DNA of 64,000 nucleotides. Source: Actinomycetota bacterium. Lineage in GTDB: Bacteria > Actinomycetota > Actinomycetes > Mycobacteriales > Pseudonocardiaceae. Below are positions 41,132 through 56,064 of the stretch, one piece after another. The notes under the pieces were generated by a model that had not been told where the DNA came from, made no database searches, and saw only the letters and a list, made by a program, of their open reading frames with translations. Position 1 is the stretch's first letter. Every line of letters begins with the position of its first letter. The position numbers were made by a program, and so were the translations under genes. The DNA is taken from contig JAJPIR010000111.1 of the NCBI GenBank assembly GCA_021324675.1, positions 1-64,000 on the forward strand. Direction: 5' to 3'.

Positions 41132-44071
41132 GTGCCTGCTGAGTCCAGCGCGAGTCATCGCCTGCTCACCGGATTAGTCAGCGTGCTCACCGCGCTGGTA
41201 TTGCCATTCGCGCCGGTCAGCGCTGGGCAAGTCACCGTGATCTGGCCGATGCCAGACCGACCGTCCATCTCCAGCGTGGCGTTGTTCGCGCCGTACCGTC
41301 CGGTCGAGATGACGGTGACCGTGCCGTGCTCGACGCTGCATACAGCCGCTGGACAGGCCCGTGCTGTCACCGTGCTGGCGACCGGTCCACCCGGCGCTGG
41401 GCTGCTGCTCAGAACCGACAACGGCACGGCTCACCTCACGCTGGGCCCGCGCGAGGTGAGCCGTGCACCGGTGGCGAGCGCCGCCTGCGGGACATGGCTG
41501 CACGCGGGGCCGGACGGAGCCGTGATTACCATCGGGGGCAGCCGGCTCAACTTGCCTGGCGAGCCGGTACCTCAAGTGTTCGGGTTCCGCACCGATCTGA
41601 GCCCCACCCAAGCGGCTCGGATAACCGTCACCGCGCACCCCGCCAACCCGTTCTCCACCAGCCCACGCCCGCTCAAGCTGCTGCTTATCGCCCTGCAGCT
41701 GCTCACCGTGGTGATCGCGCTCTGGCTACTTGGCAGCCTCCGGGCATGTCGTGCGCTCATGCCCGGTGTGTCGCGCCTCCGTGCCCGCCCTCACTGGACC
41801 AACACGACGTGGATCGACGTAGGCGTGATTGCAGTGTTCGCCGGGTGGGCGGTCATCGGTCCACTGACCGATGACGACGGCTTCGCGACCACGATCGCGC
41901 GCAACGCCGCGCTGACCGGCAATGCCGGCAACTACTACCGCTGGTGGGACGCCTCGGAGACGCCGTTCGCGCTGACCGAGCAACTGCTGGCGCCACTGGC
42001 CCAGATCAGTTTGGCACCGCTGTGGCTGCGGTTGCCCAGCACCATGCTGGGGATCGCCACGTGGTTCGTGGTCAGCCGCGGCGTGCTTGGCGCGGCGCTG
42101 ACGGCGCCGTCTACGGCGGCGGGCACAGTCCGGATCCGGCTGGTGGCCGCGGTCTGCCTGCTCGCCGCGTGGTTTCCGTTCAACCTCGGGGTGCGCCCTG
42201 AACCGTACGTCGCCTTCGGCGTCACCACGGTGCTGGCGATCCTCTACCGGGCTCGCGGGCTTGCCGCGCTGGGCTGGGCTGCGCTGGTCACCGGGCTGAC
42301 CATGCCCGTCAGTCCTAGCAGCCTGCTGGTCGCCGCGCCGATTGCGATCTTCGCACCGCGCATCGTCGCCATAGTCCGCGCCTCGGCACGTGGGCAGATG
42401 GAGGTACTGGCCCGGGTGTTACTGCTGTGCGGCATCGGCGCCGTCGGCCTCACCGTGATTTTCGCCGACCAGACGTGGGACGCGCTGGTCACCGCCACCC
42501 GCTGGCACAACTTCTTCGGCCCATCGCTGCCCTGGTACCGCGAGCCGGACCGGTACCGGTTCCTGCTCGGTGAGGATCAGGAAGGCAGCGCCACCAAGCG
42601 GATCCCCGTGCTGGTCACCCTGGCCCTCCTCCCCGTGATTGCCGGGCTGTTGCTGATGCGCCCGACGAGCGAGCGGGACGAGGCCGGCCGCGCAGCTGCG
42701 CGGCTGGCCGGGGTAGTGGCCACCGCAGTGGCACTGCTGTGGCTCACCCCGTCGAAGTGGTCACATCACTTCGGCGCTCTTGCCGGGCTCATTGCGTCAT
42801 TCCTGGTGGCGGCAGTCGCGTTGCTGTGGCACCAGGGGCACGCGCGGGTGGGTAACCACATCACCGCGGCGATCGGCGTGGCCGGCGCCGTGCTGGTCGG
42901 GGGGGCGGCCGGGCTCGCTTTCGCCGGATCGAATGCCTGGTGGCAGCCGGCCGTCTATGACGTGCCGTGGGCCAACGGTCCGGTACACCCGCTGGGCCTG
43001 CCGCTGGATTCCCCGCTGCTGTGGTTGGGTGCGGCTGCGGTCGTCGCGCTGGCCACCAGGCGGCTGATCGCTACGCCGGCACTGCTGGCCATCGCTGTGG
43101 TGGGTACCTCGGTGGCTGTCCTGCTCGGCTCCTTCGTCGCTGCCCCGATTCGGCGACCGGCCGGGTCGCTGGCGCTGGCGAACCTGCGTCAACTAGCGGG
43201 CGCTCGCTCGTGCGGGCTGGCCGACGACATCCAGGTGCTTCCGGACGGCGCCGCGCTGGCAGCCGCTGACACGTCTGGACAGCTGCACGGATTCACCGCA
43301 GCCGGCGGTTTCGACCCGGGGACCCCACCACCAGATCCCCCGGGTACCGGAGTGTCCGCGCAACTGTGGGGCAGCTTGACGGGCGGACCGCGCAGTACCG
43401 GTACGTTGACCAGCCCCTGGTTCATCATGCCCGCCCTCGGCCCGGCCAGCGGGATCGCCGTGTCGGTGTCCGGCCGCACCGACCGCGGCAACCGGCTGGC
43501 CCTGGAGTTCGGCCGCACGGCACCCACGGGTGTCGTCCTCCCGCTCGGCACGCGCATCCCGTTCGATCTGGTGAAACCGAACCAGGATCACCTCGACGGC
43601 CCACCGGAATACCGGCCGTGGCGCGCCATCGGCGTGGACGCGAGTCAGGTACCGGCCGGCGCGAACCGGGTCCGGGTGCACGCGGTCGACGCCACTACCG
43701 ACCCGGATGGCTGGCTCGCGGTCACCGGACCCCGGCTGCGTTCGGTGGTCGGGCTCACCGCATTCCTGGCCAGCCACGGGCCGGTGCTGGTGAGCTGGCC
43801 GCAGGCGTTCCTGTTTCCGTGCGTGCACGACATCGTTGAGGTCGCCGACGGGCTCGCCGGCGCGCCCCGTGTGATCATCGAAGCGCCGCGCCGCCTCGGC
43901 CGGCTGTCCGCGGTGACCACAGACCCCACGCAGGGCGGCGTCTTCGCCGGCCTGCGCCCCTACGGCGAGTTGCGCGACATCCCTACCCGCCTGGCCAACC
44001 ACCCCGAGATCGACTGGGGCACGCTGCAGCTGTCCAGCGCCCGCAACACCTACCTACTCCAGCGCCGATGA
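41132..44071 (+). CDS. Arabinosyltransferase, EmbA-like
   Basis: 979 residues from GTG 41132. N-terminal helix (LVSVLTALVLPFAPVSAG), extracytoplasmic domain, GT-C membrane core and C-terminal carbohydrate-binding domain are all present. The catalytic Asp pair is D248-D249 in LTDDDGFATTIARN, where Ile occupies the EmbB M306 position as in EmbA. NYYRWWDASETPFALTEQLL and DQTWDALVTATRWHNFFGPS also resemble EmbA. In mycobacteria EmbA works with EmbB on the arabinogalactan termini. It precedes dprE1 by 87 bases, linking donor synthesis with transfer. A copy of the 22-bp repeat family is inserted in frame near residues 205-220. Confidence 0.88.
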   Translation: MPAESSASHRLLTGLVSVLTALVLPFAPVSAGQVTVIWPMPDRPSISSVALFAPYRPVEMTVTVPCSTLHTAAGQARAVTVLATGPPGAGLLLRTDNGTAHLTLGPREVSRAPVASAACGTWLHAGPDGAVITIGGSRLNLPGEPVPQVFGFRTDLSPTQAARITVTAHPANPFSTSPRPLKLLLIALQLLTVVIALWLLGSLRACRALMPGVSRLRARPHWTNTTWIDVGVIAVFAGWAVIGPLTDDDGFATTIARNAALTGNAGNYYRWWDASETPFALTEQLLAPLAQISLAPLWLRLPSTMLGIATWFVVSRGVLGAALTAPSTAAGTVRIRLVAAVCLLAAWFPFNLGVRPEPYVAFGVTTVLAILYRARGLAALGWAALVTGLTMPVSPSSLLVAAPIAIFAPRIVAIVRASARGQMEVLARVLLLCGIGAVGLTVIFADQTWDALVTATRWHNFFGPSLPWYREPDRYRFLLGEDQEGSATKRIPVLVTLALLPVIAGLLLMRPTSERDEAGRAAARLAGVVATAVALLWLTPSKWSHHFGALAGLIASFLVAAVALLWHQGHARVGNHITAAIGVAGAVLVGGAAGLAFAGSNAWWQPAVYDVPWANGPVHPLGLPLDSPLLWLGAAAVVALATRRLIATPALLAIAVVGTSVAVLLGSFVAAPIRRPAGSLALANLRQLAGARSCGLADDIQVLPDGAALAAADTSGQLHGFTAAGGFDPGTPPPDPPGTGVSAQLWGSLTGGPRSTGTLTSPWFIMPALGPASGIAVSVSGRTDRGNRLALEFGRTAPTGVVLPLGTRIPFDLVKPNQDHLDGPPEYRPWRAIGVDASQVPAGANRVRVHAVDATTDPDGWLAVTGPRLRSVVGLTAFLASHGPVLVSWPQAFLFPCVHDIVEVADGLAGAPRVIIEAPRRLGRLSAVTTDPTQGGVFAGLRPYGELRDIPTRLANHPEIDWGTLQLSSARNTYLLQRR
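41742..41790 (+). repeat. Two-unit 22-bp repeat inside EmbA-like gene
   Basis: TGTCGTG at 41747 and TGTCGCG at 41769 are exactly 22 bases apart, with flanks GGGCA and CCTCCGTGCCCG like those of the array after bpa. The reading frame passes through as RACRALMPGVSRLRARPHW. Confidence 0.8.
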
Positions 44072-44143
44072 GTCCACCATGGAGACATGTCGAGCCCAAG
44101 CAGAGCTGGGAACCCCGGAAGGGAGGCATGCACGGGGCGTGGG

Positions 44144-44149
44144 TAGCCT
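44144..44149 (+). promoter_or_regulatory. -10 element TAGCCT before dprE1
   Basis: TAGCCT is 9 nt before ATG 44159. Confidence 0.45.
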
Positions 44150-44158
44150 CCGGCGGCG

Positions 44159-45511
44159 ATGAGCGAGATTGTGGTACGGGCACTGAGCGGGTGGGGTCGC
44201 ACTGCGCCGAGCACGGCGCGGGTGCTCACCAACCCGACGGTGGAGGCGATCCAGCAAGCGGTGCGTGAGGCCGGCGAACGCGGCGTGATCGCCCGGGGAT
44301 TGGGACGCTCCTACGGTGATCCAGCCCAGAATGCGGGCGGCCTGGTCATCGACATGACCGGGCTGGCCAGGATCCACTCCCTCGACGCCGGCAGCGGCCT
44401 GGCCACCGTCGACGCCGGGGTCAGCCTCGACGCGCTGATGCGCGCCGCGTTGCCGTTGGGCCTGTGGGTGCCGGTACTGCCGGGTACCCGGCAGGTCACC
44501 GTCGGCGGCGCGATCGCGGCCGACATCCACGGCAAGAATCACCACAGCGCGGGGACCTTCGGCAACCATGTCCGCAGTCTCGATCTGGTCACCGCGGACG
44601 GGTCGATCACCACCTTGACGCCAGCCGACGAGCTGTTCTGGGCCACTGTCGGCGGCATGGGGCTGACCGGGATCATCATCGGCGCCACCATCGCGCTGAC
44701 GCCCGTCGAGTCGGCGTACTTCGTCGTCGACACCGACCGCACCGCGGACCTCGACGAGCTGCTCACCCTGCTGACCGACGGCTCTGACGATGACTACGAC
44801 TACTCCGCGGCCTGGTTCGACGCGATCTCGACCGGCGCGAAACTGGGCCGTGCGGTGCTCACCCGCGGCAGCATCGCCCGCGCCGACCAGCTACCCCCCA
44901 AGCTGCGCCGCAACCCGCTGGCCTTCGACGCGCCCCAACTGTTCACCGCGCCCAAAGTCCTGCCCAACAGGCTGGCGAACAAGGCCACCTTCATGGCGCT
45001 GTCCGAAGCGTGGTACCGCAAGGCCCCCAAGTGCCGTCGCGGCGAGATCCAGAACCTGACCAGCTTCTACCACCCACTGGACATGATCGGCGAATGGAAC
45101 CGGGCCTACGGTCCACGAGGGTTTTTGCAGTACCAGTTCGTGGTGCCCTTCGGCGCCGAGGACACCTTCCGGCGCATCGTGGAACAGATCGTGCGCTCGG
45201 GTCACGTGTCGTTCCTCAACGTGCTCAAGCGCTTCGGTGAGGCCAGCCCGGCGCCGCTGTCGTTCCCCCATCCCGGCTGGACGATCACCGTGGACTTCCC
45301 GATCCGCCGGGGCCTGGCCGAATTCTGCGATCGGCTTGACCTGCAGGTACTCGGCGCCGGCGGCCGGCTGTACCTGGCCAAGGAATCACGTACCTCCCCG
45401 GCCGCGCTACACCGCATGTACCCGCGGATCGACGAGTGGCGCAAGCTACGGGCCACCGCCGACCCGGCGGGCGTTTTCGCTTCCGACCTGTCCAGGAGAC
45501 TCGAGCTGTGA
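44159..45511 (+). CDS. dprE1: Decaprenylphosphoryl-beta-D-ribose 2-oxidase DprE1
   Basis: 450 residues. FAD-dependent oxidase that converts decaprenyl-phosphoryl-ribose to the 2-keto intermediate, the first half of epimerisation to the arabinose donor. The FAD-binding domain has [35 protein letters not shown] and [14 protein letters not shown]. The cap and C-terminal regions carry [11 protein letters not shown] (the conserved Lys) and [11 protein letters not shown]. The Cys that benzothiazinones attack in the mycobacterial enzyme is replaced by Thr (T377 in [10 protein letters not shown]), so natural resistance is predicted. It overlaps dprE2 by 4 bases (GTGA). Confidence 0.95.
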
Positions 45512-46263
45512 TCGACGCTGTCGGCAACCCCCAATCCTTGCTGATGCTGGGCGGCACCTCCGAAATCGCGCTGGCCACTGCAGCCCGCTACGCCGCCCGC
45601 CGCCCGTTGCGCGTGGTGCTGGCCGGGCGGCCGTCGCCGCGCCTGGACAAGGCCGCCGCACGGCTGGACCGCCTTGGCGCCACGGTGGCCACGCTGCCCT
45701 TCGACGCCGCGGACACTGACGCGCATCCGGCCACGATCGAGAAGGCGTTCGCTGACGGCGACATCGACCTGACCCTCGTGGCGTTCGGGCTGCTCGGTGA
45801 CCAGGAGCAAGCGTGGACCGACCACGCCACTGCGGTAGAACTCGCCCAGGTCAACTACGTGGGCGCGGTGTCGGTCGGGGTGTTGCTGGCCGATGCGCTC
45901 ACACGGCAAGGGCATGGCACGCTGGTCGCGCTGTCCTCAGCCGCCGCTGAGCGGCCCCGGCGCTCGAACTTCTGCTACGGCTCCACCAAGGCGGGCATGG
46001 ACGCCTTCTACACCGGACTCACCGAAGCGCTGCGCCCGTCCGGGGTCAAGGTGTGCGTGATCCGGCCCGGTTTCGTGCACACCAAGATGACCGCGGGCCT
46101 GAAACCCGCCCCGCTGTCGGTCACCCCCGAGCAGGTCGCTGAGGTGATCATGGATGCGGTGGCGCAGGGCCACGAGCAAGCCTGGGCTCCCGCGCCCCTG
46201 CGCTACATCATGTCGGCCCTGCGCCACGTCCCCCGCCCGATCTTCCGCCACCTACCGATCTGA
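45508..46263 (+). CDS. dprE2: Decaprenylphosphoryl-2-keto-ribose reductase DprE2
   Basis: 251 residues from GTG 45508, which overlaps the dprE1 stop and has CAGGAG 9 nt upstream. Short-chain dehydrogenase with the nucleotide-binding [16 protein letters not shown] and the catalytic [11 protein letters not shown] (Tyr and Lys), plus [14 protein letters not shown]. It reduces the DprE1 product with NADH to give decaprenyl-phosphoryl-arabinose. Tight coupling with dprE1 matches the two-subunit epimerase. Confidence 0.95.
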
Positions 46264-46275
46264 TCTTGTGGCATT

Positions 46276-46341
46276 GTCGTGAACTCGACGCCAGCGATAT
46301 TTTTGGCCCCTTGAAACGTCGGTAGCGTCGAGTTCACGACA
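46276..46341. repeat. Inverted-repeat element, left copy, at dprE2/DUF559 junction
   Basis: GTCGTGAACTCGACG at 46276 pairs perfectly with CGTCGAGTTCACGAC at 46326. It lies between convergent genes, overlapping the end of the DUF559 gene, and may terminate both. A related element flanks the other side of that gene. Confidence 0.75.
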
Positions 46342-47257
46342 GACGGCGGCGGCGGGAACGGCGAATGATGGCGTCCTGGATGTGGGCGGCCATGCGGTCG
46401 GGGGTGCGAAGGACGTCGGAAGCGGTGAAGCGGAGCACCGACCAACCAGCGGCGTCCAGTGCGTTGAGGCGCCGCGCATCCGACGCTTGCTGCCATGCCT
46501 CGAGGTGACCCCGGCCGTCGTATTCCATCGCCAGCTGCAGCTCCGGGTACGCCATGTCCAGGCGAGCGATGAACTCGCCGGATCCGTCGAATACCCGGTA
46601 TTGGAGTTCCGGACGTGGCAGTCCGCGCAGGACCAGGACCAGCCGGGAACGGGTCTCCATGGGTGACTCAGCCCGCGGATCGGACAGACCGATCACGCCC
46701 GGCACCCGACGGCGCCAGCGTGCCCTCGGGTAGCGGTCATGGATCTGGAAGACCGCACCCGGAGCGAACCGCTCAATCCTGGCCAGCGCGTCCATCGCCA
46801 CCACCGACTCCACCGTGGGCAGCCATCGCGCGAGATCCCACGCGGTACGCAGCGCGGTCGTGATCGGGAGGCCGCCGACGTCGGTGATCTCGTCATCGGC
46901 AAGCAAGTCACGGTGGACGGTGAGACCCGGCTGCTCCCGCAGATCACGCCCCGGAATGGTCAACTCGGCGTTCGCTTCCGCCGGAGCACAGCGCGCGCCG
47001 AGTAGTTCCGCGGCGGAGTAACCCGACAGCACGCCCCATTCCGGAGCGAGCAGAGCTGCCGCCTGCGATCTGGCCGCGAGATCAGCTGGCGCGCTCGCCG
47101 GCAGGTAGATGTCGTGAAACAGGCGGCGGTACCGGTTGCCGCGGAGCACGCGCTCAGTAACCAGCCCCCGCTGCATCGCCCACGACCCGCGAAACGGCAA
47201 CGACCCCAAGCTCAGCTCGTCGATCACGGACCACACCCTGCCCGCTGCCCCCGACAA
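46334..47257 (-). CDS. DUF559 nuclease-like protein with AbiEi-type N-terminus
   Basis: Up to 307 residues. The N-terminal part (AMQRGLVTERVLRGNRYRRL followed by FHDIYLPAS) resembles the winged-helix region of AbiEi-like proteins. The C-terminal ~110 residues carry the DUF559/Vsr-like nuclease signature (MAYPELQLAMEYDGRGHL, then ARRLNALDAAGWSVLRFTAS), a PD-(D/E)xK fold. Genes of this type are frequent orphans in actinobacterial genomes; some authors link them to mobile or defence functions, unproven. The start is uncertain: TTG 47257 and later GTG codons are possible. Both flanks carry copies of one inverted-repeat element. Confidence 0.75.
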   Translation of the reverse strand: MSGAAGRVWSVIDELSLGSLPFRGSWAMQRGLVTERVLRGNRYRRLFHDIYLPASAPADLAARSQAAALLAPEWGVLSGYSAAELLGARCAPAEANAELTIPGRDLREQPGLTVHRDLLADDEITDVGGLPITTALRTAWDLARWLPTVESVVAMDALARIERFAPGAVFQIHDRYPRARWRRRVPGVIGLSDPRAESPMETRSRLVLVLRGLPRPELQYRVFDGSGEFIARLDMAYPELQLAMEYDGRGHLEAWQQASDARRLNALDAAGWSVLRFTASDVLRTPDRMAAHIQDAIIRRSRRRRLS

Positions 47258-47264
47258 TCCGGCA

Positions 47265-47332
47265 GTGCCGTGAACTCGACAAGACCGACGGGTAGAGGCA
47301 CCTCGAACGTCGGTGGCGTCGAGTCACGGCAC
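47265..47332. repeat. Inverted-repeat element, right copy
   Basis: GTGCCGTGAACTCGAC pairs with GTCGAGTCACGGCAC (one base missing). It shares the CGTGAACTCGAC core and the AACGTCGGT-GCGTCGAG segment with the copy at 46276. Confidence 0.75.
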
Positions 47333-47400
47333 GCAGGCACCAGAACGGGCACGCAGGCACCAGAACGGGCGCTCAGGCACCAGAACGGGCACGCGGGCAC
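47331..47400 (+). repeat. 20-bp tandem repeat beside aldehyde dehydrogenase gene
   Basis: ACGCAGGCACCAGAACGGGC occurs twice exactly (47331, 47351) and once with two changes (47371); a partial degenerate unit follows. The period is exactly 20. It lies just beyond the stop of the dehydrogenase gene. Confidence 0.85.
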
Positions 47401-47431
47401 GCAGGCGCTCAGAAAACTGGGCACCGGCGGC

Positions 47432-48892
47432 TCAGAATGGGTAGGGCGCGATGTCGCCGCGGACGGTGATCCAGCGGGTTTCGGTGAACGCGTCGATGTT
47501 GGCGGTGGCACCGCCGAAGCGGGCACCGGTGCCGGAAGCCGACACGCCGCCGAAAGGCGCGTGCGGCTCGTCGTTGATGGTCTGGTCGTTGACGTGCACG
47601 GTGCCGGTCGGGATCCGCTCAGCCAGCGCGAGGCCGCGAGCGACATCGGCGGTCAAGATGCCCAGCGACAGGCCGTACTCGCTGTCTGACGCCAGTTTCA
47701 CCGCATCGTCGACGGTCGTAAACGGCGTGACCGTCGCCACCGGTCCGAACACCTCCTGCTCGTAGGCGGGGATGGATGGCCCGGCATCGGCCAGGACCGT
47801 GGGGCGGTAGAACAGATCCTGGTAAGTCCCGCCCGCGACCAGCCGGGCGCCCGCCGCCATGCTGCTGGTCACCAGCTCGTGCACCCGATCCCGCTGGTGG
47901 ACGTCAATCAGCGGCCCCAGCGCGACGTGCTCGGTCGCCGGGTTGCCGACCGGCAGCGCGTCGGCCTTGGCAGCCAGCCGCGCCACGTATTCCGGGTACA
48001 GCGAATCGTGGACCAGGTGCCGGCCGATGGTCATGCAGACCTGCCCCTGGTAGAAAAATGCGCCGAATGCGGCCGCGCTGATGGCCTGGTCCAGATCAGC
48101 GTCGTCCAGCACGATCAGCGCAGAGTTGCCGCCCAGTTCCAGATGAGCCCGCTTGAGGTGGCGCCCGGCCAGCTCACCAACGCGACGGCCGCCACTGGTT
48201 GATCCGGTGAATGAGATGACCCGGACGTGGGGATCCTCGACAACTGCGGCGCCGATGTCCGCGCCACCGGGCAGCACATGCAGCACACCCGGGGGTAGCC
48301 CGGCTTCGGTGAACGACGCGGCCAGAACGACCCCTCCAGACACCGCGGTGCGCGGATCCGGCTTGAGCAGCACCGCATTGCCCAGCGCCAGCGCCGGCGC
48401 CACCGACCGCATCGCCAGCGCCAGCGGGGCGTTGAACGGCGCGATCACCCCCACCACCCCGGCGGGCACCCGGCGCACCATGCTCCACCGCGGCGCTGCG
48501 CTGGGCAGCAACTCACCCAGTGGACGCGACGGCAACGCGGCGGCTTCGTAACAGTTTTGCGCGGCGTGGTCGAGCTCGACGTAGGCCTTGCCAGGGATGC
48601 CACCGGTCTCCCGGACGATCCAGTCCCGCAGCTCGCCGGCATGCCGGTGCAAAGCATCACCGGCGCGCCGCAACACCGCTGCGCGCTCAGGAAACGGCGT
48701 CACGGCCCACTCGCGCTGGGCGGTGGCTGCCTGCGCTGCCGAGGTGGTGACTTCTTCGGGCCCCGCCAGACCGATGCGGCCCAACTCCGTGCCGGTCGCT
48801 GGTTCCACTACGGCGGCATCACCGCGGGCGGGGACCTGCCACGTTCCGGTGAAGATCCGGCTGTGCCAGCTATGTCCGTCGAGGAAACTCAC
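47432..48892 (-). CDS. Aldehyde dehydrogenase (benzaldehyde/vanillin dehydrogenase-like)
   Basis: 486 residues, full length. NAD-binding features are GVIAPFNAPLALAMRS, LLKPDPRT and FTGSTSGGRRVGELA. The catalytic Glu is in LELGGNSAL and the catalytic Cys in FFYQGQVCMTIGR. EVFGPVATVTPF and HAPFGGVSASGTGARFGG complete the fold. It oxidises an aldehyde to the acid, probably aromatic by family resemblance. GTG 48892 has AGAGG 5 nt upstream. There is no neighbouring catabolic gene, so the physiological substrate is open. Confidence 0.9.
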   Translation of the reverse strand: MSFLDGHSWHSRIFTGTWQVPARGDAAVVEPATGTELGRIGLAGPEEVTTSAAQAATAQREWAVTPFPERAAVLRRAGDALHRHAGELRDWIVRETGGIPGKAYVELDHAAQNCYEAAALPSRPLGELLPSAAPRWSMVRRVPAGVVGVIAPFNAPLALAMRSVAPALALGNAVLLKPDPRTAVSGGVVLAASFTEAGLPPGVLHVLPGGADIGAAVVEDPHVRVISFTGSTSGGRRVGELAGRHLKRAHLELGGNSALIVLDDADLDQAISAAAFGAFFYQGQVCMTIGRHLVHDSLYPEYVARLAAKADALPVGNPATEHVALGPLIDVHQRDRVHELVTSSMAAGARLVAGGTYQDLFYRPTVLADAGPSIPAYEQEVFGPVATVTPFTTVDDAVKLASDSEYGLSLGILTADVARGLALAERIPTGTVHVNDQTINDEPHAPFGGVSASGTGARFGGATANIDAFTETRWITVRGDIAPYPF

Positions 48893-49163
48893 GTGTACCT
48901 CTGTGGGTCGTATCGTCAGATTGCGCGGTCAGTTCAGTATGGGCGACCACCGCCGATCCAGGCGGCGCGGCTGCCTGCGCCCACCGAAAACGGCGCTAGA
49001 TTTCTCAACAAACCGGCGCGTGCTGACGCGCAAAAACTATGTGAAGAAGTGACATTTGCGGTCATTTGCTATTAGCGTGGGGGTCGGGCGGTTGGCAGCA
49101 GGCACCAACGCGCGCATGGCCGGCCGGGGGCAGAACGCAAGTCTCTACTGACTGCGGAGATGT

Positions 49164-50414
49164 ATGAGCGCTGATCGATCACACCGGCTGGACGATGATT
49201 CCACGCCACCCGCCGAACCACTGAGCTCGGTAGCCGGTAACCAACCGTTTTCGATGATCGTAGACCAGCGTGATCCCAAAGTAGTGGTCCTCACTGTGAT
49301 CGGTGAGATAGACATGCTTACCGAATCGCCGCTCGACGAGCATCTCGGTTGGCTTCTTTCCCTGCAGCCGGAACGCTTGATCATCGACCTGAGCCACGTG
49401 TCGTTCCTGGGCGCCGGGACCCTCTCGGTATTGATCAATGCCAGGCGTACCTCCGCCCGGCAAGGCACCACACTGCAGTTGAGAGTCCCGGACCTGCCGG
49501 TTCCAGCTCGAGCGCTGGAATTAACCGGGCTGGACTGCCTGCTGGAAATCGTGCCACCGGCTACCGGCAGCGACGAAACCCACAGTGAGGGCACGACCGT
49601 TTCACCTCCCCCGGAGTCGCCGCTCGGGGTGGGACCAGGACAAGACGAGTACGTGCATCTGTTTCCACTGCACCACCGCTACGCGGAGCTGGCACCCGAT
49701 CGGGCCGAACGGCACCAGGTGCGCGAGGCTCTGATCAATGGTTACCTTCCGCTGGCCGAACACATCGCCCGCCGCTTCACTGGCCGCGGTGAGCCGCTGG
49801 ATGACTTGATCCAGGTAGCCACCGTAGGACTGATCAACGCTGTGGACCGCTTCGAACCCAGCCGCGGCTCCCACTTCCTGTCCTTTGCGGTACCGACGAT
49901 CACCGGCGAACTGCGGCGGTACTTTCGCGACCACGGTTGGTCCACCCGCGTACCGCGCCGAGTGAAGGACCTCTACCTGGCCGTCCGGAGCGCGCTGGTG
50001 GACCTGTCGCAACGGCTGGGCCGGTCACCCCGCCCTAGCGAGATAGCCGATCATTTGGGGATCCCGACCGAGAAAGTGATCGAAGCGCTACACGCGGGAG
50101 AGGCGTATCGAAGCTCATCATTGGACGAGATGCTCAGCTTCGGTGACACCGCCGCAACACACCAAAAGGTCGTCGGTGAATTGGATGCCGAGATGTGGCG
50201 TATCGATGATCGGGAGGCGCTACGCCCCTTGCTCGCCGAGCTCGCTCCCCGGGAACGCACCATCCTCGCACTGCGCTTTTTTCACGAACTCACGCAGGCT
50301 CAGATCGCCGAGCAAGTCGGAATTTCGCAGATGCACGTCTCCCGGGTGCTCCGCCAAACACTGGCCTTTCTCCAGTCACGCATGAGCGAGAGCACTACGT
50401 GCATTGATCATTAA
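49164..50414 (+). CDS. SigF/SigB-family sigma factor with N-terminal STAS domain
   Basis: 416 residues joining two functions that are normally separate. Residues about 29-131 form an anti-sigma-antagonist (STAS) domain: VVVLTVIGEIDMLTESPLDE, LIIDLSHVSFLGAGTLSVLI. The usual phosphorylated Ser position reads as Ala-Gly-Thr. A flexible Pro/Ser linker (132-160) leads to a complete group 3 sigma factor: region 2 (DDLIQVATVGLINAVDRFEP and SFAVPTITGELRRYFRD), region 3 (RLGRSPRPSEIADHLG) and region 4 (ELTQAQIAEQVGISQMHVSR). The STAS part may sequester or sense the anti-sigma kinase in cis. GGAG lies just upstream of ATG 49164. No anti-sigma gene is adjacent. Confidence 0.88.
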   Translation: MSADRSHRLDDDSTPPAEPLSSVAGNQPFSMIVDQRDPKVVVLTVIGEIDMLTESPLDEHLGWLLSLQPERLIIDLSHVSFLGAGTLSVLINARRTSARQGTTLQLRVPDLPVPARALELTGLDCLLEIVPPATGSDETHSEGTTVSPPPESPLGVGPGQDEYVHLFPLHHRYAELAPDRAERHQVREALINGYLPLAEHIARRFTGRGEPLDDLIQVATVGLINAVDRFEPSRGSHFLSFAVPTITGELRRYFRDHGWSTRVPRRVKDLYLAVRSALVDLSQRLGRSPRPSEIADHLGIPTEKVIEALHAGEAYRSSSLDEMLSFGDTAATHQKVVGELDAEMWRIDDREALRPLLAELAPRERTILALRFFHELTQAQIAEQVGISQMHVSRVLRQTLAFLQSRMSESTTCIDH

Positions 50415-50563
50415 CATTTTCGGTCACAATCGAGTAACAAAAATCACATTCCAATAACAAAGGACCGGATTATGTGCCGTCGGCGCCCCAGCGGGTAGCC
50501 GTAATTGTGGCGTCATCAACGATCAACGATGGCGCGCCGATTCGGACAATCAGGGAAGACGTG

Positions 50564-51517
50564 ATGAACACGAAACGACGCGCAGCAACCAGGATGGGTC
50601 TCGTCGCTATCGCCGCTTCGTCGGCGCTGGTACTCGGCGCATGTGGCGGAGGCGGCAACGAGACCCCCGCACAAGGCCAGCACGGGGCACCCGCTCAGAG
50701 CCAGGGCGCTCCCGGCGGGGCTTCCAACGTGAGTACCTGCGTGACCAGCGACAAAGTCACGAGCACTCCGCAGGACTTCGCCGGTAAGCCGGTCACGATT
50801 ACCGGAACGGTGGGTCAAGTCGTCAGCCAGCACGCCTTCACCGTGACCCCCAGCAGTACCAACAGCATCACCGGCAACATGAATCGCGGTAACGCCCAGC
50901 CGGTGCTCTCCGTCAACAAGGAGACCACAGCGCTGAGCCCCGGGGCTCCTGTGCAGGTCGAGGGCACGCTGCAGCCCACCTTCGACCCCAACCAGGCAGC
51001 GACCTACACCGGTGGCAACCTTGGCCAGGGTGATTTCACCGCCTACAACGGCAAGCCCTATGTTCAGGCCGGGTTCGCTGGACCCATCAGCTCGAACCTG
51101 ACCCAGCAGAGCAGCAGCGGCGTCCTCAAGAGCGGCAATTGCGGTGCTGTCAGCGATGTCCTGAGCAACATGCAGACCTACAACGGCCAGCAGATCACGG
51201 TTACCGGGACGGTGGCCCAGGTCCTCGGTCCGCATGCCCTCATCGTTGCGCCTACCGGCAACAACTCTGGGAACACCGGCAACAACGCGCAGACGCTGCT
51301 TGCCGTCGCCAAGGACACCGGGACGCTCACCACCGGATCACCCGTGGAGCTGACCGGCACGTTGCAGCCTGCCTTCGACATCAACCAGGCGACAGCGTTC
51401 GCCGGCAGCAATATCGACCCGGCGGCAATGACGGCCTACAACGGTAAGCCGTACGCCCAGGCTGTGTACGTCGGACCCGTGAGCGCCAACTTGGCCGGCA
51501 ACCAGAACGGGAGCTAA
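50564..51517 (+). CDS. Secreted lipoprotein with two tandem beta repeats
   Basis: 317 residues from ATG 50564. A positively charged start and hydrophobic run (LVAIAASSALVLGACGGGG) give a lipobox with Cys near residue 27, so the protein is probably anchored to the outer face of the membrane. A Gly/Gln-rich linker follows. Two repeats of ~115 residues share ITGTVGQVxxxHAxxVxP, VxGTLQPxFDxNQA and AYNGKPYxQAxxxGP (first about 65-190, second about 200-310). The pattern suggests an OB-like or small beta-barrel fold; no named family recognised. It lies 149 bases after the STAS-sigma gene in an AT-rich gap and could be a target of that sigma factor. Confidence 0.8.
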   Translation: MNTKRRAATRMGLVAIAASSALVLGACGGGGNETPAQGQHGAPAQSQGAPGGASNVSTCVTSDKVTSTPQDFAGKPVTITGTVGQVVSQHAFTVTPSSTNSITGNMNRGNAQPVLSVNKETTALSPGAPVQVEGTLQPTFDPNQAATYTGGNLGQGDFTAYNGKPYVQAGFAGPISSNLTQQSSSGVLKSGNCGAVSDVLSNMQTYNGQQITVTGTVAQVLGPHALIVAPTGNNSGNTGNNAQTLLAVAKDTGTLTTGSPVELTGTLQPAFDINQATAFAGSNIDPAAMTAYNGKPYAQAVYVGPVSANLAGNQNGS

Positions 51518-51533
51518 CGCTCACAACTTCCCG

Positions 51534-51716
51534 CTACTGAGCCAGCGCCGGGAACATGTGGCGGACCAGCCGGAGCACCAGCTGTTCCAACAGGTACGCC
51601 AAGCTGGCGGCCAGCACGTTGATAAGCAACTCTTCCACGGCGGCCAGGTTAGGAACTGGCGATGGCGATGAGGCAAGGCGCAGCGGACTGGTCGGCGACC
51701 TCCGGGTGAACGGCAA
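51534..51716 (-). CDS. Possible small amphipathic protein
   Basis: 60 codons at most. The end AAVEELLINVLAASLAYLLE with LVLRLVRHMFPAL looks like an amphipathic or membrane-associated helix. The N-terminal half is Pro/Ser-rich. The start codon would be TTG without a ribosome site, so this is tentative. Confidence 0.25.
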   Translation of the reverse strand: MPFTRRSPTSPLRLASSPSPVPNLAAVEELLINVLAASLAYLLEQLVLRLVRHMFPALAQ

Positions 51717-51869
51717 GTTGACAGTACTCGCCAGACCACGTACTGCACCGAAGTAAGCAGCGGGTGCGCGCCGGACCGGGCAACAGCCCGGTCCGGCGAA
51801 GCATCTTCACCAGCTACAGCTGCCAGGAAATCCGCCTGGAACGCATGAGGGCCCGGGAGTGAGCCAGCC

Positions 51870-52127
51870 ATGACCAAAGTAGCCGGCCGGCATGCCGCGC
51901 AGCGGGTGAGCAAGCGCCAGGACGTGCGGATTACGTTGCCGGGCTTGGGCACGATCGACCTCGGGCCGCCTGACCAGCTCGCCTACCTCGCCGGAATCGG
52001 CGCACTGGCCGCACTGGAAATCATCGAATGGCCACTGGCGTGCATTATCGCTGCCGGGCACATACTGGCCGATCAGCGGCGCAGCGCCACCCTGCACGCA
52101 TTCGGCGAGGCTCTTGAACAAGCCTAG
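51870..52127 (+). CDS. Small conserved membrane protein, 85 residues
   Basis: A basic N-terminus leads to VRITLPGLGTIDLGPPDQLA, then two hydrophobic segments (YLAGIGALAALEIIEWPLAC, IIAAGHILADQ) and an amphipathic tail ending EALEQA. The TLPGLGTI...PPDQLAYL motif recurs in small actinobacterial membrane proteins as far as I recall; function unknown. GGGAGTGAG precedes ATG 51870. Confidence 0.75.
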   Translation: MTKVAGRHAAQRVSKRQDVRITLPGLGTIDLGPPDQLAYLAGIGALAALEIIEWPLACIIAAGHILADQRRSATLHAFGEALEQA

Positions 52128-52178
52128 AGCGCAAATCCTCTGCCCGATATGGAGTCTATCGGGGGTACCCATCCACCA

Positions 52179-52216
52179 CCTGCTACCTCCCTATGGCGCC
52201 ATATCGCGGTAGCAGG
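52179..52216. terminator. Hairpin between convergent genes
   Basis: CCTGCTACC pairs with GGTAGCAGG, enclosing a 12-bp palindrome TATGGCGCCATA. It lies between the small membrane protein and ubiA stops, so it is a likely bidirectional terminator. Confidence 0.6.
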
Positions 52217-52221
52217 GAATA

Positions 52222-53133
52222 TCAGAGATAGACTGCGGCGATCAGGGTGAGGACCAGGCCGGCACCGAGTACCTGGAGAACGCGGTCCCCAAGAGCAATG
52301 TCCTCCGGTTCGCCGCCATTGCCACCGTCGACGTCAACGGCATAACGCAGCACCGCGATCACGAAAGGCACCAGCGAGATCACCGGCCAGCGTGAGTGGT
52401 TAGCCTGGCTGAGCTGGAACGCCCAGAGACCGTAAGTCATGATCACACCGGTGGCGGACAGGGTCCACACGAACCTCAGGTACGACGACGTGTAGCGCTC
52501 CAACGACTTACGGATCTTCGCGCCGGTGCGCTCGGCGAGCCGGATCTCCGCGTACCGCTTGCCAGCCACCATGAACAGCGACCCGAACGCGGTGGTCAGC
52601 AAGAACCACTGCGACAGCGCGATCTGCGCCGCAGCGCCACCGGCGATAGCCCGCAGCAGGAAGCCTGACGCGACGATGGAGATGTCCACTACCGGCTGGT
52701 GCTTGAGCCACCAGCAGTAGGACAGCTGCACCGCAATGTAGATCACGGTCACGATCGCCAGGTCGGTGGAAGCGATAAATGACGTCACCAGCGCGGCCGC
52801 GAACAGCACACCGGCCACCGCCAACGCCAGCCTGGGTGCCACCACCCCGGCAGCGATCGGCCGGTTGCGCTTGGTCGGGTGCGCTCGGTCTGCTTCAAGG
52901 TCCTGCACATCGTTGACCAGGTACACGCCAGAGGCGGCCAGGGAGAACGCGACAAAGGCGATTCCCACCGCGATGAGCGCCTGCAGGTGGAACAGCACAC
53001 CGCCAGCAAAGGGCGCGGCCAGCACCAGTACGTTCTTCACCCACTGCCGGGGCCGCATCGCACGGACCAACCCGGCGACAGCGTTGAGCGGACCGGCGAC
53101 GGTCTGGTTCTGCCCCGGTGCGGTCGTGGTCAT
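52222..53133 (-). CDS. ubiA: Decaprenyl-phosphate phosphoribosyltransferase (DPPR synthase), UbiA family
   Basis: 303 residues with about nine membrane helices. It transfers 5-phosphoribose from PRPP to decaprenyl phosphate, the first step to the arabinose donor. The first Asp-rich motif is NDVQDLEADRAHPTKRNRP. Other family marks are RPRQWVKNVLVLAAPFAGG, CWWLKHQPVVDISIVASGF and the second loop KRYAEIRLAERTGAKIRKSL. The ATG overlaps the PAP2 stop (ATGA), so phosphatase and synthase are translationally coupled, as with Rv3806c/Rv3807c. Confidence 0.93.
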   Translation of the reverse strand: MTTTAPGQNQTVAGPLNAVAGLVRAMRPRQWVKNVLVLAAPFAGGVLFHLQALIAVGIAFVAFSLAASGVYLVNDVQDLEADRAHPTKRNRPIAAGVVAPRLALAVAGVLFAAALVTSFIASTDLAIVTVIYIAVQLSYCWWLKHQPVVDISIVASGFLLRAIAGGAAAQIALSQWFLLTTAFGSLFMVAGKRYAEIRLAERTGAKIRKSLERYTSSYLRFVWTLSATGVIMTYGLWAFQLSQANHSRWPVISLVPFVIAVLRYAVDVDGGNGGEPEDIALGDRVLQVLGAGLVLTLIAAVYL

Positions 53134-53720
53134 CGCTCCACCCCCTCGCCGGTAGCGGTACCTGCACCGCGCACCCGACCACGGAGCCGCCGCCGCATCC
53201 CCGCGCCGACCACCGCCCCCAGGGCAGAACCCATCAGCACGTCGGTCGGGTAGTGCACCCCCAGCACCAACCTGCTGATCAGCATAGGCGGCACCAGCGC
53301 GGGAGTGAGCCGGCGGCGCAGCAGCCCGCCGTAGAGGATCGCAGCCGCGGTCGTCGAGGCAGCGTGCGACGACGGGAAGGACAGCTGGCTGGGGGTACCC
53401 GCCAGCACCACCACTGTGGGATCCGTGGGGCGCTGCCGGCGCACCACCCGCTTGACCGCGATCGATGCGCCGTGCGCGGCAGCGACCGCAGCCGCAGAGG
53501 CCAACCAGTCCCGCCGGCGCCGCCGGTCGATGAGCGCACCCAGCGCGCCCAACGCCAACCAGCCCAGCGCGTGCTCGCCGAAATGCGACAGCCCGCGGGC
53601 GGCTGTGACCACCTGGGGCACTGCAATCCGGCGCTGCACCGCGGACAGCAGGGCGATTTCCCGCTGCTGTGGATCAGCTTTCGAAATAAGCCCCGAAATA
53701 AACCAGTGTGGCAACATCAC
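53130..53720 (-). CDS. PAP2-family phosphatase (decaprenyl-phosphoryl-5-phosphoribose phosphatase candidate)
   Basis: 196 residues. The three phosphatase motifs are present: KRVVRRQRP, PSSHAAS and SRLVLGVHYPTD, with hydrophobic helices between. In this operon it most likely removes the 5-phosphate from decaprenyl-phosphoryl-phosphoribose to give the DprE1 substrate, as proposed for Rv3807c. Its GTG overlaps the glfT2 stop (GTGA) and its stop overlaps the ubiA start, so all three genes form one coupled unit. Confidence 0.88.
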   Translation of the reverse strand: MMLPHWFISGLISKADPQQREIALLSAVQRRIAVPQVVTAARGLSHFGEHALGWLALGALGALIDRRRRRDWLASAAAVAAAHGASIAVKRVVRRQRPTDPTVVVLAGTPSQLSFPSSHAASTTAAAILYGGLLRRRLTPALVPPMLISRLVLGVHYPTDVLMGSALGAVVGAGMRRRLRGRVRGAGTATGEGVER

Positions 53721-55714
53721 GCGTCGAATACTCGCTTCCAGCCGGTGCGGTCAGTGAGTTGCGCAGCCGCGGCGCGATAGCGCTTGCGCAGCGCCGGGAA
53801 TTCCGCGGCGAGCTGCCGGTGCAGGGCCATCGAGCGGGCCAGCATCGAGCGGAACGCCTGCGGGTCGCGCTTGCGGTAGGTGACGCCACGACCATCAGCA
53901 GTCGAGACGGTCACCCCGTCCAGTGCGGACAGCACGAACCAGCGAGCGTCCTGGCGGGACAGGGCCAGTTGCGGGCGCTGCTGGGCGCGTGGATCGATCG
54001 GTCGCAGCTGGTGCGCCAACCGCTTGAGCAGGGTAGCGCCGATCATGACCGGATTGGTGGGTGGGTTGAGCATGCGTTGCAGGGCAAGCCGGCCGGCGGC
54101 GGGCAGCGGCAACTCCTGGGAATCCACCACCTGCCCGTCGGTGAACTCGGCGCACCGGGCCCGGACCTCACCCAGCACGGTGGGTAGCTTGTCGAACAGC
54201 GCCTGCGGACCGGCCATGAAGTCCCGGATCGCCATCTCTTGGAGCGCCAGCGTGGAGTACTCCATCGCCAGGGCGTGCTTCAAGGCGTGCTTGAGACTGT
54301 CGGCAAGCAGCGCCGTGGGTCGAGTCTCGGTGCCGTGCAATGCCGCGCCGACGAGCCGGTTGCGCAGGTGGAAGTAGGCCTGCCAGTCGGTGGCGTCGTC
54401 CTTGTCGGCGAAGGACATGTGCCAGATCCCGACACCGGGGACGGTCGCGGTGGGGTAGCCAGCTGCCCGGGCTCGCAACCCGTACTCGACGTCGTCCCAT
54501 TTGATGAACAGCGGCAGTGGCAGGCCGACATGTTCGGCGACGGTGCGCGGGATCAGGCACATCCACCAGGCGTTGTAGTCGACGTCGGTGCGCCGGTGCA
54601 TCCAGGCGGTCTCGCGTAGCGAGTGTTGCGCGAAGTCGTGGTCGTACTCGGTGCCTGGTGCTTTGTTCCAGCGCATCCGTCGGCGGTCGACGACCTCGCC
54701 CCAGGCGTGCAGCCGAGACCGGGCCTGGGATTGCAGCATCTGGCCGCCGACCAGCATCGGGCTCCTGGCGAAGCGGGAAAATGCCACCGCGCGCAGGATC
54801 GAGTCCGGTTCTAGGACGATGTCGTCGTCCATGTACAGGATCTGCTCGCAGTCGGTGTTCTCCAGCGCCTCGTACATCACCCGCGCGTAGCCACCCGAAC
54901 CGCCGATGTTGGCCTGATCGATGATCCGCAGCCGATCACCGAGCACGGCCTGTGCTGATGTGAAGCCGTCCTGGTCGCGGACCTTGTTGACACCCTGGTC
55001 GGGGATCACCACTGCGGTCACGACCGAGCGCACCAGCTCGTCTTCACCGATTGCCCGCAGGGTGGCCACGCAGTCGGTAGGGCGGTTGAACGTGGGCATC
55101 CCGATGGTCACCGCGGCGCGGCCGGGCGCGGCCACCGGAGCGTGCCAGCCCCCGGAGTGGAGCACCAACTCCGAGTCCTCAGTGCTGATGTCGAACCAGT
55201 ACCAGCCGCCGTCCTCGAACGGCGTCAGGTCCAGCTCGACGTCCAGCTCTCGACGACCACCCTCAATAAGGTGGCCGTGCACGTGGATCTGGGTCGCATC
55301 GGCCTTCGACCGGTAGATGTCGATGCGTCCTGCGCCTTCGAGGTCCAGCCGCAGCCGCAGCGTGCGCAGCGTGCTCCAGCGGCGCCAGTAACTGGCGGGA
55401 AACGCGTTGAAGTACGCCGCGAACGAGACCTCGGTCTGCGCCGGGACCTGCGCGCTGGTACGGGACAGCGCGCGCACCCGGCGAGCGTTGGGGCTGGCGA
55501 GGGTGACTTCGACGTCCACGTCATGCGGGTTGGCATCGCCAGCAGGAGGCCACACCCGCCGGGCAGCCGCCAGCCGCTCGTCGAGGTAGAGCGCACGGAC
55601 CGCCATGGGGTCGGCCCGGCGAGGAAAGATCACTCGCTGGAGCAGGGTCGAGAATGAGTCGGCCGGTGCGCTGGTGCCCGTGTGGTCCGGGCTACAGACG
55701 GTGCTGCTCGGCAT
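53717..55714 (-). CDS. glfT2: Galactofuranosyltransferase GlfT2
   Basis: 665 residues from ATG 55714 (GGGGAG just upstream). GlfT2 polymerises galactan by alternating beta-1,5 and beta-1,6 links. The order matches: N-terminal beta-barrel (EVSFAAYFNAFPASYWRRWS, PFEDGGWYWFDI), GT2 domain with IGMPTFNRPTDCVATL, NIGGSGGYARVMYEALENTD, metal site YMDDDIVLEPDS, catalytic IKWDDVEYGLRA, and IWHMSFADKDDATDWQAYFH, then a helical C-terminal domain. Of three family members here, this one lies in the ubiA/PAP2 operon as in mycobacteria and is closest by eye to Rv3808c. It is the presumed ortholog. Confidence 0.93.
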   Translation of the reverse strand: MPSSTVCSPDHTGTSAPADSFSTLLQRVIFPRRADPMAVRALYLDERLAAARRVWPPAGDANPHDVDVEVTLASPNARRVRALSRTSAQVPAQTEVSFAAYFNAFPASYWRRWSTLRTLRLRLDLEGAGRIDIYRSKADATQIHVHGHLIEGGRRELDVELDLTPFEDGGWYWFDISTEDSELVLHSGGWHAPVAAPGRAAVTIGMPTFNRPTDCVATLRAIGEDELVRSVVTAVVIPDQGVNKVRDQDGFTSAQAVLGDRLRIIDQANIGGSGGYARVMYEALENTDCEQILYMDDDIVLEPDSILRAVAFSRFARSPMLVGGQMLQSQARSRLHAWGEVVDRRRMRWNKAPGTEYDHDFAQHSLRETAWMHRRTDVDYNAWWMCLIPRTVAEHVGLPLPLFIKWDDVEYGLRARAAGYPTATVPGVGIWHMSFADKDDATDWQAYFHLRNRLVGAALHGTETRPTALLADSLKHALKHALAMEYSTLALQEMAIRDFMAGPQALFDKLPTVLGEVRARCAEFTDGQVVDSQELPLPAAGRLALQRMLNPPTNPVMIGATLLKRLAHQLRPIDPRAQQRPQLALSRQDARWFVLSALDGVTVSTADGRGVTYRKRDPQAFRSMLARSMALHRQLAAEFPALRKRYRAAAAQLTDRTGWKRVFDA

Positions 55715-56064
55715 GAACTCCCCAGTTCCGGCGAGATAGCGGTGTCGGCGTCGCCAGAGGGTAACGCTAGGCGGCAACCCGACATCGGGCGGCCACCCGC
55801 TGGCCGCATACCGGCAGCTGCAACCCGCTGCGCTGGACTCGGCCGCTGGCGCTCCCACCCTACGACGGCGCCGATGGCACCGGCGATCCTGACCGGACAT
55901 TGACCGGAAAACAAACCGACGACACAGGCTACTGCGCGTCCGTCAACGATGCAGTGAGCAGTGAATGCACAGTCTGTTAACGGCGTGCGCATGACCTACC
56001 CACTGCCGATAGTTTATCGCCCGGCTTTGTTCCCAACCTGATTACCGACTCCAGGGGCTGCCGC
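55715..56064. other. Divergent promoter region between two GlfT2-family genes
   Basis: 350 bases separate the glfT2 operon (minus) from the second GlfT2-like gene (plus). It must contain both promoters. Frames through it encode Arg/Pro-rich junk and no repeat or hairpin stands out. Confidence 0.45.

Follow-up and report, generated by a model that had tools for sequence, protein, structure and literature searches.

A STAS domain fused to a complete sigma factor

Partner switching normally involves three separate proteins and a phosphorylation cycle. Here we describe a natural fusion of an anti-sigma antagonist domain (STAS) to a stress sigma factor, which is encoded in a 64,000-nucleotide stretch of DNA from a soil-type actinobacterium of an uncultured genus of Pseudonocardiales (Actinomycetota; positions 1 to 64,000 of contig JAJPIR010000111.1, assembly GCA_021324675.1; hereafter the window). 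The fusion gene, its parts and the segment that carries it are listed in Table 1.

Table 1. Features of the fusion gene and its surroundings (positions of the window)
Feature	Position	Strand	Basis or remark
STAS-sigma fusion gene	49164..50414	+	416 aa, ATG start; ortholog and paralog with same architecture
GGAG, resembling a ribosome-binding site	49156..49159	+	4 nt before ATG; sequence read directly
STAS domain, aa 35-129	49266..49550	+	Pfam PF01740, 2.2e-10; full STAS secondary structure in AlphaFold model
Phosphorylation loop G83-A84-G85-T86-L87	49410..49424	+	Profile alignment to RsfB 8ih8 and alignments of relatives
Linker, disordered and fast-evolving, aa 133-160	49560..49643	+	Model confidence, dN/dS, ortholog identity
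SigB/SigF/SigG-type sigma factor, aa 161-407	49644..50384	+	TIGR02980, 6.2e-81, above cut-off
Sigma region 2, aa 190-259	49731..49940	+	Pfam PF04542, 2.5e-18
Sigma region 3, aa 277-322	49992..50129	+	Pfam PF04539, 2.8e-13
Sigma region 4, aa 356-402	50229..50369	+	Pfam PF04545, 2.6e-17
Segment with fusion, lipoprotein and 85-aa open reading frame	48893..52221		Shared by window and G004; G002 lacks it
Putative lipoprotein, two similar halves	50564..51517	+	Travels with fusion

The match of the N-terminal part to PF01740 scores 40.7 bits against a cut-off of 22.6 (aa 35-129), while the sigma part reaches 271 bits against a cut-off of 234 for the NCBIfam SigB/SigF/SigG family TIGR02980 (aa 184-407), and sigma regions 2, 3 and 4 each exceed the cut-off of their Pfam family. 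An AlphaFold model built on a 27-row alignment (mean predicted local distance difference test score, pLDDT, 80.5) contains both folds in full, with pLDDT mostly ~80-97 in each part and all elements of a STAS domain present (strands E, helices H: E29-37, E40-49, H54-66, E71-82, H84-99, E103-107, H112-121, E128-130). Between them, aa 137-160 of the linker fall below a pLDDT of 50 and are disordered in the model. The relative placement of the two domains is undefined because the predicted template modelling score is low (0.43). Staphylococcus aureus SigB in the open complex ranks second among the solved-structure matches of the model, and the STAS profile also matches structures of RsfB and SpoIIAA. 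These data confirm one 416-aa protein composed of a complete STAS domain, a disordered linker and a complete SigB/SigF/SigG-type sigma factor. An earlier note made from the DNA sequence alone had proposed a STAS domain fused to a complete SigF/SigB-type sigma factor at this place; Pfam, NCBIfam and AlphaFold all bear it out, with coordinates, strand and length correct.

Conservation of the fusion as one protein

In the following, G000 is the genome of the window and C143 its contig, while G004 and G002 are other genomes of the genus. The G004 ortholog of the fusion (P0002) is 84% identical across the full length and has the same architecture and the same neighbouring genes, and a paralog on contig C20 of G000 (P0003) shares the architecture at 58-60% identity. 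Because the fusion is kept in a second genome and in a paralog, chance and misassembly can be excluded. Between the window copy and the G004 ortholog, the ratio of nonsynonymous to synonymous substitution rates (dN/dS, Nei-Gojobori method) is 0.23 for the STAS domain, 0.13 for the sigma part and 0.52 for the linker, with 82% identity in the STAS domain and 54% in the linker. Judged by this conservation, the fusion is probably translated and selected as one protein with intact STAS and sigma parts.

We consider it very improbable that the main product is the sigma part, made from an internal start, and that the fusion is only nominal. The window copy does have GTG codons at aa 130, 156 and 164 that could serve this purpose, but none of them is also found in the ortholog. 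From aa 107 to 185 the two copies have no in-frame start codon in common, and shared ones past the STAS domain begin only at aa 186, within the sigma part. The GGAG motif, its spacing and the ATG of the full-length frame are all kept in the ortholog, and the STAS codons are in frame under purifying selection. An internal start therefore appears unlikely, and the fusion held up against this objection, which the earlier note had itself raised.

Loss of the phosphorylation site

In an alignment of the profile of fused and orphan (stand-alone) STAS domains to solved structures, Ala84 of the fusion lies opposite Ser63 of Mycobacterium smegmatis RsfB (8ih8). The acceptor position is alanine in the window fusion, the G004 ortholog and the C20 paralog alike, which leaves no phosphorylatable serine or threonine there. 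In M. smegmatis, phosphorylation of RsfB Ser63 blocks binding of RsbW1; the S63A variant retains binding and brings about a strong increase in SigF-dependent expression, whereas binding is lost in S63E (PMC7693655). The suggestion that the usual phosphoserine position is not serine was thus correct, and control by canonical phosphorylation is unlikely, as had also been proposed, because the acceptor serine is replaced.

The loss of serine is real but extends beyond the fusion. The loop reads GAGTL in the window copy; ortholog and paralog have GAGAL and GATAL, respectively, and the stand-alone STAS domains of the genus have GATGL. Since these nearest stand-alone relatives also carry alanine, loss of the serine probably predates the fusion; some orphan STAS domains of other Pseudonocardiales retain it (FLGSAGL, FMGSTGL). 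What is seen only in the fusions is loss of the glycine two residues past the acceptor: Thr86 of the window copy sits where nearly all relatives carry glycine.

Rarity and published precedent

With the fusion as query, an N-terminal STAS domain and a sigma factor in one protein were found in 2 of 11 genomes of the genus among the matches listed. These searches covered the Actinomycetota and list the best-scoring matches, with few candidates per genome scored in the large ones, so that a very diverged STAS domain would escape detection. Within this scope, no other N-terminal STAS-sigma fusion was among the matches listed from 249 genomes of the family (46 genera), 298 of the order and 394 of the class (138 genera), and a stricter phylum-wide survey of 396 genomes listed the fusion in the window's own genome alone. 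The survey of the architecture called for in the earlier note thus confines the N-terminal fusion to the genus among the matches listed. A scan for the STAS family across 84,980 named genomes returned 55 loci, of which the copy in the Pseudonocardiales metagenome-assembled genome CP_BM_RX_74 (JAFAWY010000104) is the sole fused one, and a plasmid search gave no record at 80% coverage.

Some candidates were rejected. Long SigF open frames of ~415-440 aa in other genera have an N-terminal part that is arginine-rich, out of frame and devoid of any domain, and that is probably the overlapping rsbW gene read out of frame. The match in G673, a genome of another family, extends over aa 69-407 and is spurious upstream of the sigma part.

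The architecture is not unprecedented as a kind. A 2023 paper (Nat Commun, PMC10733313) presented sigma-SsdA of Actinoplanes missouriensis as the first such protein, a sigma factor that carries an anti-sigma antagonist domain. In this protein the sigma factor spans residues 37-260 and the STAS domain residues 282-377, sipA is adjacent or one gene away, and the RsbW-like domain of the partner SipA binds the fused STAS domain and inhibits the sigma factor (PMC10733313). The STAS-first order is a different matter: a literature search, which was not exhaustive, found no report of it. Like sigma-SsdA, the fusion combines a SigB/SigF/SigG-type sigma factor and a STAS domain in one polypeptide of an actinomycete whose genome also encodes a protein of SipA architecture (STAS and RsbW-like). 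It differs in that the STAS domain is N-terminal rather than C-terminal, in belonging to an uncultured genus of Pseudonocardiales, and in having no adjacent anti-sigma gene, with the nearest match to the SipA architecture on contig C147. We do not file the fusion as an SsdA member because its order is opposite, no sipA is adjacent and the two fusions may not be homologous. The reversed order instead suggests independent origins, so that sigma-STAS fusions would have arisen repeatedly in actinobacteria, with either order. The fusion is therefore best described as a real, rare variant of the recently described sigma-STAS kind with opposite domain order and a lost phosphorylation site. A search in 8 genomes of one other family of the class, which may be the Micromonosporaceae, turned up no sigma-STAS protein.

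Origin of the two parts

In a tree of STAS domains, the three fused ones form a single clade (support 98/60) near stand-alone orphan STAS domains of Pseudonocardiales metagenome-assembled genomes, while the STAS domain encoded in the SpoIIE-STAS-UsfX-SigF cluster of the genus (contig C39, locus L029) falls in a separate clade. The fused STAS domain thus appears to derive from the orphan family and not from an rsbV gene of the sigF operon. Simple derivation from an rsbV-rsbW-sigF operon that lost its rsbW was considered and rejected, since the fused domains group with the orphans and the operon STAS stands apart. The nearest orphans (L025/L096, L007, L033, L097 and L098, from the genus and other Pseudonocardiales) include three members of the genus that align with the fused domain at 45-57% identity and all have alanine at the acceptor; they differ in being unfused and in keeping the glycine past the acceptor, and some Pseudonocardiales members keep the serine. 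CP_BM_RX_74 also has a stand-alone member of this STAS family (L121, JAFAWY010000054, 5914-6210, forward strand), which loses similarity at the phosphorylation loop (...VSFSAKSGIW) and is possibly a frameshifted or truncated copy.

The sigma part lies within the expansion of SigF paralogs of the genus, among copies outside operons. An unfused paralog on contig C142 is interleaved with the fusions in this tree, though a single clade of fusion sigmas is not rejected (approximately unbiased test, p 0.117), and on these trees one fusion event and two are both compatible with the data. Directly upstream of the C142 sigma gene we found no STAS remnant; the matches lie ~2 kb away, in a STAS-like open reading frame beside a HATPase gene. 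This paralog (L030:7735-10783) has no adjoining UsfX gene, and an RsbW-like gene lies ~1.2 kb upstream, preceded by a partial STAS-like open reading frame.

Measured against positions that are invariant in ten operon SigFs of the genus, the fusion sigma keeps 58 of 59 in region 2, 31 of 36 in region 3 and 35 of 37 in region 4, while 9 of 25 are changed in the linker between regions 3 and 4. The number of changes in region 3 (five), which we inspected for signs of escape from UsfX, is similar in unfused paralogs. Since the promoter-contacting regions 2 and 4 have hardly changed, the promoters recognised by the fusion are probably similar to those of the UsfX-controlled SigF, with control being different. 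Upstream of the fusion gene itself we found no convincing conserved -35/-10 pair of a SigF-type promoter.

Candidate partners

Another close system is the SigF-UsfX/RsbW1-RsfA/RsfB switch of Mycobacterium: the sigma part of the fusion is a SigF, its STAS domain aligns with RsfB, and its genome has a cluster of SpoIIE phosphatase, STAS, UsfX-like and SigF genes. Unlike in Mycobacterium, the antagonist is covalently attached, has alanine at the position of RsfB Ser63 and has no adjoining UsfX gene. On contig C143, no RsbW-like HATPase_c_2 protein was among the matches listed; the whole genome has ~40 HATPase_c_2 matches that exceed the Pfam cut-off, although these include proteins that are not anti-sigma factors. 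UsfX-like proteins adjoin plain SigFs on contigs C39 and C12. On C147, a protein of SipA architecture (STAS and HATPase; L061:1084-1860) is encoded, and G004 encodes a relative with the same domain layout; on C147, GAF-SpoIIE-HATPase, STAS-HATPase and STAS genes stand in a row (L061/L063). On C20 (L028:4360-7669), the paralogous fusion is divergent from a GAF-SpoIIE-HATPase gene whose product is 78% identical to the one encoded upstream of the STAS-HATPase on C147. The UsfX-like proteins next to plain SigFs (C39, C12), the STAS-HATPase of C147 and the GAF-SpoIIE-HATPase of C20 are the first partner candidates. For a 5.6-Mb draft, the partner-switching repertoire of G000 is very large, with five SigB/SigF-type sigma factors and dozens of STAS matches.

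Possible modes of control

We tentatively favour a reading in which the STAS domain is a non-phosphorylatable docking site for an anti-sigma factor of the RsbW/UsfX type that protects its own sigma domain. The anti-sigma factor would dock on the fused STAS domain and be unable to inactivate it because the acceptor serine is alanine. The STAS domain would then compete in cis with its own sigma part for the same anti-sigma factor and leave the attached sigma largely free, so that sigma activity would be set mainly by the amount of fusion protein made. The fusion may also soak up UsfX and thereby release other SigF copies of the genome.

Such self-protection draws support from the behaviour of RsfB S63A described above, and purifying selection on the STAS domain inside the fusion speaks for docking. 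The near-intact sigma regions 2 and 4 are a further point in its favour, as are the UsfX-like proteins encoded beside two other SigFs of the genome, with no HATPase_c_2 protein among the matches listed on C143. Two stretches that we take to face RsbW from general knowledge of SpoIIAA and RsbV (aa 46-55 and 78-96) differ between window copy and ortholog at 1 of 29 positions versus 18 of 76 elsewhere (p 0.02); against this, the test was post hoc, its p value is close to 0.05, and the stretches contain buried core as well as surface. Further points weigh against self-protection. The STAS domain evolves faster than the sigma part, and the glycine two residues past the acceptor, which stand-alone relatives keep, is alanine or threonine in all three fusions; its loss could weaken docking. 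We infer the anti-sigma partner of the fusion, as we do its binding and release. Moreover, the only studied sigma-STAS fusion, sigma-SsdA, is inhibited via its STAS domain (PMC10733313).

It is accordingly also possible, if doubtful, that an RsbW-like protein uses the STAS domain as a handle to inhibit the sigma factor in cis, as SipA does with sigma-SsdA, with release by something other than serine phosphorylation. The SipA-like STAS-HATPase encoded on C147, with its G004 relative, and the GAF-SpoIIE-HATPase gene divergent from the C20 fusion would fit this arrangement. However, the domain order is reversed relative to sigma-SsdA, the comparison with it is one of domain types, and no sipA-like gene lies beside the fusion or anywhere in the window, the SipA-like gene being on another contig. 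The earlier idea that joining the two domains could make the sigma factor self-releasing or a direct sensor is a conjecture, and sigma-SsdA behaves in the opposite way, with the RsbW-like domain inhibiting through the STAS domain (PMC10733313). Self-protection and inhibition in cis share a core, namely that an anti-sigma factor of the RsbW/UsfX type docks on the STAS domain but cannot switch this domain off by phosphorylation. A natural antagonist-sigma fusion that lacks the phosphorylation site would offer a simple test of whether tethering makes an anti-sigma factor free or lock the sigma factor.

A bolder version of self-protection, which we regard as unlikely, is that the fusion represents an independently evolved second class with a built-in partner switch, whose phospho-dead antagonist gives immunity to anti-sigma factors, titrates UsfX and activates other SigFs. 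If this were true, expression of one gene would override the whole phosphorylation-based stress switch.

Less likely still is that the STAS domain no longer binds an anti-sigma factor and is a passenger, either degenerating or turned to another use (scaffold, dimerisation or ligand-binding module), with the sigma part under UsfX or controlled by expression alone. Loss of both the acceptor serine and the following conserved glycine in all three fusions, a STAS dN/dS nearly twice that of the sigma part, and the place of the closest unfused sigma (C142, same genome, no STAS) among the fusions would agree with it. Plain decay is at odds with a dN/dS of 0.23, 82% identity and a full fold, and the putative partner-facing loops are the slowest-changing part.

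Genomic surroundings

The ~3.3-kb segment that carries the fusion is flanked by genes for an aldehyde dehydrogenase and a UbiA-like protein, which are ~125 nt apart in the related genome G002. The region around it (41132-55900) codes for large arabinosyltransferase-like proteins and has DprE1/DprE2-like, UbiA-like, PAP2-like and GlfT2-like genes. It resembles a locus for the arabinogalactan cell wall, with the fusion-lipoprotein segment apparently inserted into it.

The lipoprotein (MNTKRR...LGACGGGG) is putatively secreted, matches no Pfam family above cut-off and is 90% identical to its counterpart at the same place in G004. A GGGTAG hexamer resembling the -10 element of SigF promoters is conserved upstream of its gene, with no clear -35 element, and hints that the lipoprotein may be linked to the fusion. 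Its only other relative that we found (52% identity; contig C31 of G000, L033:4759-5652) is encoded directly convergent to a stand-alone STAS gene of the fused-STAS family, an arrangement that hints at a lasting link between STAS domain and lipoprotein.
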